A DNA stretch of 45,709 nucleotides from Phycisphaeraceae bacterium. Lineage in GTDB: Bacteria > Planctomycetota > Phycisphaerae > Phycisphaerales > UBA1924. The stretch is from positions 1 to 45,709 of the forward strand of contig JAJTHN010000044.1 of NCBI GenBank assembly GCA_021297895.1. Direction: 5' to 3'. The translations under genes and the position numbers were made by a program. Shown here piece by piece: positions 25,060-30,246 of this stretch (position 1 is its first letter; each line of letters opens with the position of its first letter). The notes under the pieces are model-generated. The model made no database searches. It saw only the letters and a program-made list of their open reading frames with translations, and was not told the origin of the DNA.

Positions 25060-25989
25060 ATGCGAGTGTTCTGGGTCTTCATCTTGCTGCTGATCGTCGC
25101 TGGCGGAGCCGCGCTGGGCCTGCGCATGCGGTCGCAGAGTCCGGGCGGGGCGACGACTCCGATTTCCGAGCCGCCATCGGCCAGAGCGATGCCGGTGGCC
25201 ACCGACACGCGAACACCGGAGCCGCCTGCGACCAGCGTTGGGACCGATCGGGTCGCCCCGAAGAGCGGGCCGGCCGACGATGCGCTCGCGCCCGTCGCGA
25301 CGGCGGCGTCATCGGCGACCGAGCCGCCGCGGATCGAGGAACTGCTCCCCTCGCCGACGGCTTACGACCCGGAAGGGCTTTCGACCAGTGGCTCGACAAT
25401 GATCCTTCGAGAGGTTCCCGTTGGATTGACCAGCGACACGCCCGGTGCTCCGGCGGCGGAGGTCTCTGCTTCGGCGTTTGCGCTGCCGATGAGCGAGCGA
25501 TTCCCGGTTGAGCGCCTGTTTCCCGCCAAGGCCGAGCGCACGAGTGACGGCGCGGTGATGCTCGACGGTCGCTTTGCTGTTCCGGGTTCCGGCACGGTGG
25601 AGGATCCGTACCGCTTGTCGTGGGATCTTCTCGTTTCGGCCCAGGAGACCTACAAGCCGCGGCTTGGTCAGACGCGGCTGCCGCAGCGGGTCGCGTGGCT
25701 CGACGGAAAGCACGTGCGGGTGTCCGGCTTCATCGCTTTTCCGATCGCCAGCAACAACCCGCAAGAACTGCTGGTCATGCTCAATCAGTGGGACGGCTGC
25801 TGTCTCGGCGTGCCGCCCACGGCGTACGACGCCGCGGAAGTGAAGCTCGCGTCGCCGGCCTCTCCCGCGCAGCGAATGAGTGTCCACGGCACATTGACGG
25901 GCCGGATGAAGGTGGATCCGTACGAGGATCAGGGCTGGCTGCTCGGCTTGTACATCATCGAGGATGCAAAGCTCGTCGTCGATCAGTGA
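25060..25989 (+). CDS. DUF3299-domain protein, membrane-anchored
   Basis: 309 residues. An N-terminal membrane helix (WVFILLLIVAGGAALGL) is followed by a long Pro/Ala/Thr-rich linker and a C-terminal folded domain (about 190-309). The latter matches DUF3299: LDGKHVRVSGFIAFP, then LLVMLNQWDGCCLGVPPTAYDAAEV and a final beta strand. The cysteine pair in DGCCLGVPP is a conserved mark of the family and could bind metal or form a disulfide. It is 42 bp downstream of the ABC permease and convergent with the CheY-like gene. It is likely part of the same transporter system, possibly as a periplasmic accessory. Confidence 0.8.
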   Translation: MRVFWVFILLLIVAGGAALGLRMRSQSPGGATTPISEPPSARAMPVATDTRTPEPPATSVGTDRVAPKSGPADDALAPVATAASSATEPPRIEELLPSPTAYDPEGLSTSGSTMILREVPVGLTSDTPGAPAAEVSASAFALPMSERFPVERLFPAKAERTSDGAVMLDGRFAVPGSGTVEDPYRLSWDLLVSAQETYKPRLGQTRLPQRVAWLDGKHVRVSGFIAFPIASNNPQELLVMLNQWDGCCLGVPPTAYDAAEVKLASPASPAQRMSVHGTLTGRMKVDPYEDQGWLLGLYIIEDAKLVVDQ

Positions 25990-26007
25990 TCGGCCGACCA
26001 CGGTCCA

Positions 26008-26457
26008 TCAGGTCCGGCCCGGGGGCGGTACGTTGTACTGGCCCCAGTAGCGGTCGAGTTCATTGACGAGCCGCTGGAACTTCTCGAGGTCAACGGGCTT
26101 GACCACGTAGCTGTTTGCGCGATGGGCGTACGCGCGAGCGCGATCAGACTCGGCTTCGCTCGTTGTGAGCACGACGACAGGTATTGTGCAGAGCGAGGGA
26201 TTGTCCTTGATGAAGGACAGGACCTCGTGACCATCGATCTTGGGCAGCTTCAGATCCAGCAGCACGACATCCGGGCGAGGAGCGTCGGCAAAGGGCTCCG
26301 CTCGAGTGAGGTACGCGATCGCCTCTGCACCGTCACGCACCCGGGCCACGCTGTGGGCCGCGCCCTTGTCCTGAAGTTCGAGGAGCACCAGTTCGGCGTG
26401 CGAGTCATCGTCCTCAACCAACAGCAGATGCACGGGTCGTTCATGCGACCTCGGCAT
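26008..26457 (-). CDS. CheY-like response regulator, Rcp1 type
   Basis: 149 residues, receiver only. The motifs are LLVEDDDSHAELV (acidic patch), PDVVLLDLKLPKIDGHEVL (phospho-acceptor Asp), VLTTSEAESDR (Thr) and SYVVKPVDLEKFQ (Lys). This form, with NPSLCTIPVVVLTTS and the long helix alpha5, matches the Rcp1-like regulators that pair with phytochrome-type kinases. The start overlaps the 3' end of the upstream kinase gene by 17 bp, so the two are coupled and are cognate partners. There is no output domain, so it acts through protein contacts or a phosphorelay. Confidence 0.9.
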   Translation of the reverse strand: MPRSHERPVHLLLVEDDDSHAELVLLELQDKGAAHSVARVRDGAEAIAYLTRAEPFADAPRPDVVLLDLKLPKIDGHEVLSFIKDNPSLCTIPVVVLTTSEAESDRARAYAHRANSYVVKPVDLEKFQRLVNELDRYWGQYNVPPPGRT

Positions 26458-28030
26458 GACTGGGCTCCTTGGCCAGAAGTGTCTCTGGAAGCGAGAACCA
26501 GAAGGTCGCGCCGTCCGGAGGTGAAGACTCTACCCACGCCCTGCCGCCATGAAGGCCCGCGATCTTTCGCACGATCGCAAGGCCCACACCGGTTCCTGGA
26601 GAGGACGAGTCTAGGCGTTGAAAGAGCCCGAAAATCCGCTCGTGATGCACCGGCGGCACGCCCGGACCGTTGTCGCGCACGAAGAATCGAAGCTCTCCCT
26701 CGCCCCGTACGCAGCCGACGACGATGCGCCCGCCGGGCTTCGTGCAGGCGTAAATCAGCGCATTGCCGATCAGGTTGTCGAACACCTCGCCGATCTGGAT
26801 CGGGTCGGCCGTGATGAGCGGCATGCCGCACTGCACTTCCAGCGATGCACCGACGCTCGCCAGGCGTTCGGCATAGTCCTCGCCCAGGCCTGTCACGAGC
26901 CGATGGACGTCCACGGTCGATGACTTGTGCGTCACGCGTCCGATGCGGCTGAGTTCCAGCAGATCGTCGATGGTCAGGCAGAGTCTGGTCGTCGCGGAGC
27001 TGATCCGCTCGGCGAACAAGCGGACGCGGTCCCAGCGCTGCACATCCGCATCGCGGATGATGTGCCCGATGAACCCCGAAATCGTCACCAGAGGGCTCTT
27101 GAGATCGTGCGAAACCGTGTACACGAACTGCTCGAGCTCCTTATTCTTCGTGCGCAGGCGAGCGTTCAAGTCGTTCAAGTCCGCCTCTGCGCGCTTGCGT
27201 GAAGTGATATCGCGCGTCGTGATCGCTACACCGTTGCCCAGCGGCACGACCTGATGCTGGAGCCACCTGTCCGGCAGCTCGGGGATATTGATCGCAAACT
27301 CCTCGGAGAGCGGGATCCCGGTCCGCATGACGCGAACATACTTGTCAAAGAAGCCACCGGTCCGATTGATCGGGATCAACTCGCACAGACGCTGGCCCAC
27401 GATCTGGTCGCGACTCCGCCCGATGAGCTCGGCGCCGCGGGAGTTCACATCGCTGAAGACGAAGTCCACGGGTTCATCACCATCAGAGCCGGTGACGGCT
27501 TCAAGCAGGTAGAAGGCGTCAAGGCTGCCCTCCGCGGCCGTGCGATAGCGTTCCCGATTCTCGCGTTCCGCCTTCTCCGTGCGATGCCGCGAAATTGCCA
27601 GCGAGAGCACGCGTGCGACCGCGGTGATCAGATCGACTTCCGCCGCAGTCAGTTCGCGATCATCTTCCCAGAAGATACCGAGCACGCCGAGCGTCTCGCA
27701 CCCGGCGATGATCGGCACGTGAGCCGATAAGCGCACGTCTTCTGATGTCGGCACCGTCGCGCGGATCTGCCCCCGTTCGGTGACGATCTCCCGGGTCATG
27801 AAGGCCCGAGCCGCCGCGAAGCGATCATCCAGAGGAATCGTCGCGGAACCGGCAATGCCAGACGGCCACCCGACAGCCGCCCGCACCAAGAGACCGCTGC
27901 CATCGGGCTGGGGATTGGTGACTTTGACGTACCGGGCCTGAAGGACATCCGACAGCAATCGGACCGCGCGATGCATCAGCAGGTCAGTCGAGAGGGTCGC
28001 GAGCCCGAGTTCCGCCAATTCGGCGAGCAC
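26441..28030 (-). CDS. GAF-PAS sensor histidine kinase (N-terminus interrupted)
   Basis: 529 residues if started at GTG 28030, but that start has no ribosome site and lies inside a longer coding-like frame. A GAF domain comes first (about 1-175, with VKVTNPQPDGSGLLVRAAVG and ETLGVLGIFWEDDRELTAAE). A PAS domain follows (about 185-285). A short coiled stretch leads to a HisKA domain (VYTVSHDLKSPLVTISGF) and the ATPase domain (N-box FDNLIGNALIYAC, G1 RDNGPGVPP, G2 GTGVGLAIVRKIAG). The organisation resembles phytochrome-like kinases without a chromophore cysteine recognised. Upstream, in frame, lies a two-helix membrane anchor separated by one TGA at 28142-28144. Confidence 0.85.
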   Translation of the reverse strand: MLAELAELGLATLSTDLLMHRAVRLLSDVLQARYVKVTNPQPDGSGLLVRAAVGWPSGIAGSATIPLDDRFAAARAFMTREIVTERGQIRATVPTSEDVRLSAHVPIIAGCETLGVLGIFWEDDRELTAAEVDLITAVARVLSLAISRHRTEKAERENRERYRTAAEGSLDAFYLLEAVTGSDGDEPVDFVFSDVNSRGAELIGRSRDQIVGQRLCELIPINRTGGFFDKYVRVMRTGIPLSEEFAINIPELPDRWLQHQVVPLGNGVAITTRDITSRKRAEADLNDLNARLRTKNKELEQFVYTVSHDLKSPLVTISGFIGHIIRDADVQRWDRVRLFAERISSATTRLCLTIDDLLELSRIGRVTHKSSTVDVHRLVTGLGEDYAERLASVGASLEVQCGMPLITADPIQIGEVFDNLIGNALIYACTKPGGRIVVGCVRGEGELRFFVRDNGPGVPPVHHERIFGLFQRLDSSSPGTGVGLAIVRKIAGLHGGRAWVESSPPDGATFWFSLPETLLAKEPSHAEVA

Positions 28031-28141
28031 ATATTGCGCGGAGGTGGGGCGTTGTCCGCGGCGAGCCTGGATTTTGCGATAGATCCACGCAGTTGGGAGC
28101 GCAGCCGCGGCGGCAAGCAGTGCACCGCCGAGCGCGCCGAG

Positions 28142-28255
28142 TCAGACCGAGTTCGCCTCAACCGCCAAAGCGGTTGTGGTCACCCCCGCAAAGTAGGTGA
28201 TCGCCTGTCCGGCGAGGAGGGCGGTTCGACGGGATGGGCGGATGCGTTTTGACAC
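28142..28255 (-). CDS. Detached N-terminal membrane anchor of the sensor kinase
   Basis: From GTG 28255 a 37-residue frame runs to a TGA at 28142-28144: a basic start (SKRIRPSRRT) and a membrane helix (ALLAGQAITYFAGVTTTALAV). Directly past the TGA, in the same frame, a second helix (LGALGGALLAAAAALPTAW), IYRKIQARRGQ and then the annotated kinase continue with no other stop. Third positions stay GC-rich on both sides. This reads as one gene with an in-frame stop. Possible explanations are a nonsense mutation, recoding, restart downstream, or an assembly error. Confidence 0.45.
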   Translation of the reverse strand: MSKRIRPSRRTALLAGQAITYFAGVTTTALAVEANSV

Positions 28256-28632
28256 TGGAGAATAAGACTCAGGCTCAAGAATGGGCCTTCACGTAGAGGC
28301 TTGGCCCACTGCAAAAGTGCTCCCTACGAGGCCCATAACGTGTATCGGAACGATATTGATGATTCCGGGTCTCAGCAATGTGAATCTATAGAACCAAGCG
28401 GTTTCGCCTAGTCTATGCGGGGCAATCACTATGACCAATCATTGGAGTGCCATGACGAAGTCGCGGTGAAACCCACTGACTTGGGCCCGAGATTCCGGAT
28501 GCTGATAAAAACCGGGAAGTTGACCCAAGTTTGGCGGCGCTTTGGCCGACCAAAGTCAAGAGGGAGGCAGATGACCGCCCGTGGATGTCCCGGTCGGCCG
28601 ACAGCAGGAATCTCAGAACGGGAACCAGCCTT
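28256..28632. other. 377-bp divergent intergenic region, lower GC
   Basis: It separates the sensor kinase (minus) from the diguanylate cyclase (plus) and should hold both promoters. It is less GC-rich than the genes. No convincing -35/-10 pair, operator or RNA gene was identified. Short open frames here start without ribosome sites. Confidence 0.5.

Positions 28633-30246
<1,614 letters not shown>

Follow-up and report, generated by a model that had tools for sequence, protein, structure and literature searches.

The window analyzed here is the whole 45,709-nucleotide stretch of a contig from a Phycisphaeraceae bacterium (JAJTHN010000044.1). On its minus strand lies the open frame of a sensor kinase (26441..28030), which runs for 529 codons from GTG 28030 without a stop. 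With residues numbered from GTG 28255, a start codon further upstream in the same frame, Pfam places GAF_3 at 91-223, PAS_4 at 264-355, HisKA at 374-439, and HATPase_c at 484-592, each match being near full length. The HisKA (36.1 bits; cut-off 26.9) and HATPase_c (90.5 bits; cut-off 26.4) matches identify the product as a HisKA-type sensor histidine kinase. A single-domain response regulator (Response_reg, 9.6e-20) is encoded on the same strand at 26008..26457 and overlaps the 3′ end of the kinase; its position suggests that it is the partner of the kinase. The divergent neighbor encodes a receiver-GGDEF-HD protein. ARAGORN placed a tRNA-Glu (CTC) on the plus strand at window positions 30092-30168, within the HD-domain end of that gene; because this call has no Rfam support at the gathering score, it is probably false.

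Upstream of GTG 28030, the kinase frame continues back to GTG 28255 and is broken only by a TGA at 28142..28144. Read from GTG 28255 to the stop codon at 26441-26443, the minus-strand frame comprises 37 codons, the TGA, and a further 566 codons, and the extension carries no second lesion. Its first half (28145..28255, minus strand; 37 codons) encodes a basic N-terminus and a first candidate membrane helix; its second half (28031..28141, minus strand) encodes a second candidate helix, a basic flank, and a linker into the GAF domain. The frame, both GTG codons, the lone TGA, and the final stop had been described in the initial annotation of this DNA and are all borne out by the sequence; the frame with its single in-frame TGA is a real observation.

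The next usual start codon downstream of the TGA is GTG 28030. A scan of the intervening stretch for ATG, GTG, TTG, CTG, ATT, ATC, and ATA recovered only CTG 28120, ATC 28084, and ATC 28072 in frame, which agrees with the earlier statement that ATG and TTG are absent there. GAF_3 begins 15 residues past GTG 28030, so a start at that codon would retain the whole domain. The earlier description of GTG 28030 as lacking a ribosome site also holds; its duplex energy with the textbook anti-Shine-Dalgarno sequence is +1.9, and the share of 2,000 random positions that match or beat this value rounds to 1.0. The ribosome site of GTG 28255 is weak as well (−2.2, against a random median of −2.8). Between 27900 and 28700 no promoter-like site was detected; a single terminator-like site, against 0.5 expected, lies on the minus strand at 28528-28512.

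The coding character of the extension was assessed with a 3-periodic, order-3 model giving log-odds in bits per 111 nt, trained on score-selected genes, the kinase body among them, from approximately 397 kb of this genome. In the kinase frame the extension scores +2.7 bits before the TGA and +0.7 bits after it; the best scores in the other five frames are −10.5 and −4.5, respectively, and the kinase frame is therefore the best of six in both halves. The 111 nt upstream of 28255 score −26.5 in the same frame, which places the beginning of the coding signal at GTG 28255, and GC content rises from 0.50 (28256-28366) to 0.64 (28145-28255). For comparison, codons 2-38 of 213 predicted genes of at least 600 nt have 5th, 10th, 25th, and 50th score percentiles of −0.8, 1.1, 4.8, and 8.8, and 2,741 overlapping open 111-nt stretches from gaps have 50th, 90th, 95th, and 99th percentiles of −12.9, −1.0, 2.2, and 13.0. 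The extension scores fall at approximately the 5th to 25th percentile of real N-termini; each half resembles coding sequence more than gap DNA, but ranks low among real genes. The initial annotation had reported GC-rich third positions throughout. This is accurate before the TGA (GC3 0.73) and fails after it (GC3 0.65, GC1 0.76); GC3 in the kinase body is 0.78. The frame preference in both halves, with the hairpin pattern described next, suggests that the extension is probably former coding sequence.

The two hydrophobic candidate helices, with basic inside flanks, lie in one frame with the TGA between them. Their hydropathy is moderate: the first has a Kyte-Doolittle (KD) value of 1.21 over 18 residues with an N-flank charge of +5, and the second a value of 1.56 over 18 residues with a C-flank charge of +3. 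We formulated a hairpin rule that requires two 18-residue windows no more than 12 residues apart, each with hydropathy of at least 1.21 (the value of the weaker helix here), a charge of at least +3 on both outer flanks, and a loop without net positive charge; the rule was fixed after the sequence had been seen, and the resulting figures overstate the case. Among wrong-frame windows of 76 codons, 1 of 6,562 satisfied it in this genome and none of 18,274 in a relative (G036), the latter drawn from the 400 best-scoring of its 883 predicted genes; both counts exclude windows with two or more stops. Among predicted N-termini, 2 of 213 in this genome and 0 of 682 in G036 satisfied it, and shuffling the residues of the extension produced the pattern 2 times in 5,000. 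The window and N-terminus counts replace an earlier control on a longest-ORF gene set (1 of 7,777 wrong-frame windows and 1 of 235 N-termini); that set contains shadow frames and was also superseded, for coding scores, by the score-based set. The arrangement of basic residues, helix, short loop, helix, and basic residues is rare by chance. The earlier reading of this region as a basic start, a helix, the stop, a second helix, and a linker corresponds to a candidate pattern that is present in the frame, and the low coding score counts against it. Pfam assigned no family to the read-through extension above cut-off, the best being DUF6542 (18.8 bits against 27). A fold of residues 1-223 predicted from the single sequence, with helices at 9-34 and 37-65, had a mean pLDDT of 39.5 and was unusable.

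To place the stop in context, we took proteins of approximately 150 or more residues predicted in 1.2 Mb of one same-family genome, aligned them to this genome (965,639 bases), and kept alignments of at least 35% identity over at least 80 columns, overlapping ones being dropped. Among the resulting 149 regions (47,369 residues), four contained a stop; in two of these it falls where the alignment ends and similarity beyond is slight, which leaves 2 of 149 with a single in-frame stop inside conserved sequence, one TAA and one TAG. A lone in-frame stop is therefore not exceptional in this assembly. The TAA lies in a conserved gene (L319, 2719-3534, minus strand) at residue 175 of 268 of the relative's protein, with 57 of 93 identities after the stop; its contig is only 3,952 bases long, and the stop is perhaps an assembly error. 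The TAG lies in a protein-kinase-like gene (L147, 5777-7489, plus strand) shortly after the DFG motif and is immediately followed by an ATG; similarity to the relative persists beyond it (74 of 173 identities). A smaller survey found in-frame stops in 1 of 56 regions. The first such survey, with 19 of 43 regions, was discarded because shadow frames had distorted it.

On the strength of the coding score, the hairpin pattern, and the base rate of in-frame stops, we consider, with moderate confidence, that the likeliest reading is a broken N-terminal two-helix anchor ahead of an otherwise intact kinase. The ancestral gene would have encoded a membrane-anchored sensor histidine kinase in which a short basic N-terminus led into a hairpin of two helices joined by a very short outside loop, with a linker connecting the hairpin to the GAF-PAS-HisKA-HATPase region; this kinase would have worked with the single-domain response regulator whose gene overlaps its own. 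A nonsense change located between the helices would now stop translation after 37 codons. The catalytic part is intact, and the cell may still produce it in soluble form, either from GTG 28030, which lies shortly before the GAF domain, or from another internal start. Of the three causes that the initial annotation had offered for the TGA, a nonsense mutation in an ancestral anchor is accordingly the best supported, and the case for the two others is weaker to differing degrees.

The first of these is an error of assembly or sequencing, or a minority strain variant, such that the organism itself would carry an unbroken gene and a normal anchored kinase; we regard this as possible but improbable. 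The assembly is a draft (84 contigs, 97% complete), the two other conserved genes with single in-frame stops, one of them on the 3,952-base contig, could share such an origin, and the extension is free of any further lesion. In the reverse comparison, in which proteins from approximately 397 kb of this genome were aligned to a relative assembled as a single contig, none of 67 regions had an internal stop, and three had one at their ends; nevertheless, the two rates (2 of 149 and 0 of 67) do not differ meaningfully. None of the tests applied pointed to low quality at the site itself, which is far from the contig start, the window corresponding to contig bases 1-45709.

Slightly less probable, and in our view doubtful, is that the extension was never coding and represents a 5′ leader with a chance open frame, the gene being a soluble GAF-PAS kinase that starts at or near GTG 28030. 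The weak coding score, the GC3 of just 0.65 in the second half, and the poor ribosome site of GTG 28255 are in keeping with this, as is the frequency of comparable stretches elsewhere: upstream of the nearest in-frame stop, open stretches scoring at least −3 occur in 11 of 64 genes (the query and 10 others), a count made on the imperfect longest-ORF set with its shadow frames. Frame preference in both halves, the GC step at 28255, and the rarity of the hairpin speak for past coding instead, and GTG 28030 is equally devoid of a ribosome site.

Homologs bear on the same question. The full kinase returned no ortholog from 61 genomes or from a collection of bacterial and archaeal species (best 80 of 343 relatives), nor did its N-terminal half from 400, 397, and 392 genomes of the order, class, and phylum, sets that partly share genomes. 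Searches by DNA found no close relative among 163 family genomes or plasmids, nor did a short pattern in viral contigs. In the 61-genome search the strongest match apart from the query begins at residue 271, and none of those listed begins before residue 168. Among the matches listed for the kinase, its N-terminal half, and the DNA search of family genomes, none comes from a second genome of the same genus. The N-terminal half matches other genomes mainly over the GAF domain, at 21-36% identity. Two weak matches extend furthest into the extension: one in G856 (residues 20-145, E 2.5e-4) and one at L129 (residues 15-132, E 3.6e-4, with one TAG inside), the latter rejected as an apparent chance frame with a second stop just upstream.

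The initial annotation had held that homologs beginning at the GAF domain, without upstream helices, would refute its reading. Such genes were sought among remote GAF homologs rather than orthologs, and nine were found: of 59 loci, 50 were matched, and in nine of these (23-29% identity; the count omits L117, whose E is 2.7, and L187, which is truncated by the locus end) GAF lies no more than approximately 60 codons from the first possible start, and no hydrophobic stretch precedes it. By Pfam, 35 GAF loci were recognized in this genome and in selected loci of relatives, one being the query and three others GAF-first; in L208, L213, and L222, GAF falls within 60 residues of the frame start, with no window above 0.83 before it. 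As these homologs are distant and have shuffled domains, they count only weakly against an anchor, lowering its prior. The order of membrane helices followed by GAF does exist, since in a relative's KdpD (L128, another of the 59 loci) the membrane domain DUF4118 (412-519) immediately precedes GAF_3 (542-658). A GAF-led alignment with this protein continues through its helices across the TGA, and the extension alone gives no alignment with them.

Programmed or leaky readthrough of the TGA, with insertion of selenocysteine, tryptophan, or another residue and a mixture of anchored and soluble kinase as the outcome, is very unlikely. The frame is otherwise open on either side of the TGA, and the base that follows is C, a leakier context than T. 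Several points were tested, and nothing was found in favor of this proposal, which the initial annotation had also raised. No SelA match was found in the genome (draft, 97% complete), and all seven hits to the tRNA-Sec model fall below its cut-off and are read by ARAGORN as Leu, Ser, Ser, Tyr, Trp, Leu, and His tRNAs; both components by which selenoprotein synthesis would be recognized are thus missing from the search results. TGA is the main stop, ending 139 of 174 long frames in the longest-ORF set, and among the 149 conserved regions it occurs only at the ends of two alignments. The tRNA-Trp that was found has the anticodon CCA and a 5-bp anticodon stem with five standard pairs; this and the predominance of TGA as a stop are not what UGA-to-Trp recoding would present, for which a UCA anticodon, or CCA with a 4-bp stem, and a rare TGA stop would be expected. 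PMC13092985 links UGA readthrough to a 4-bp anticodon stem or to changes at tRNA positions 9 and 24; by the numbering that we applied to it, the tRNA-Trp(CCA) has A9 and G24, and so neither of these changes. The readthrough context suggested for inspection also proved unremarkable, the 60 nt from the TGA folding no better than shuffles (z = 0.07), and Rfam found nothing within 25500-29500. A literature search recovered no papers on readthrough in histidine kinases or in Phycisphaerae. A still less probable variant treats the TGA as a switch that has been maintained, with a low level of readthrough giving the anchored form and an internal start the soluble one; if true, one kinase gene would yield products at two cellular locations. 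Finally, the 37-codon frame has the start, basic N-terminus, hydrophobic stretch, and stop of a separate small membrane protein or leader peptide beside an independently translated kinase, an idea that is scarcely credible given that the coding signal does not end at the TGA but continues into another candidate helix, itself flanked by basic residues, and that neither start has a good ribosome site.

If the broken anchor is the correct reading, the ancestral protein would resemble several known systems in part. ArcB is a sensor histidine kinase anchored by a short two-helix membrane hairpin. The predicted architecture is similar in its short hairpin, near absence of an outside domain, and succession of cytoplasmic sensor domains, HisKA, and HATPase_c; it differs in having GAF and PAS_4 as sensor domains, a hairpin interrupted by a stop, and a receiver on a protein of its own, and the NCBIfam ArcB model scores the kinase at 92.5 against a cut-off of 838. 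KdpD-type kinases such as L128 (KdpD, Usp, DUF4118, GAF_3, HisKA, HATPase_c) likewise have membrane helices, here candidate ones, directly ahead of a GAF and HisKA kinase. However, PAS_4 is added here, there are just two candidate helices, and these do not align with those of L128 on their own; Pfam gave no match to KdpD, Usp, or DUF4118 in the read-through kinase (E up to 0.01) or its first 94 residues (E up to 1), and the KdpD and DUF4118 domains are those by which the type is recognized. The predicted product from GTG 28030 is like soluble GAF-PAS histidine kinases, from which this locus differs by its coding-like two-helix extension upstream. As in single-stop pseudogenes, one stop interrupts an otherwise open frame with intact downstream domains; unlike in typical nonsense-interrupted genes, the stop is near the N-terminus and spares all recognized domains, so activity may remain.

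The finding is ordinary: probably usual gene decay, or possibly an assembly error, with no sign of special decoding, and neither outcome alters general understanding. For annotation, it counsels caution, in that a kinase annotated as soluble may be the remnant of a membrane-anchored one, and its start should therefore be marked as uncertain. Should the organism truly carry the stop and the kinase have kept its activity, the locus would offer a modest natural example of a sensor that lost its anchor in a single step.
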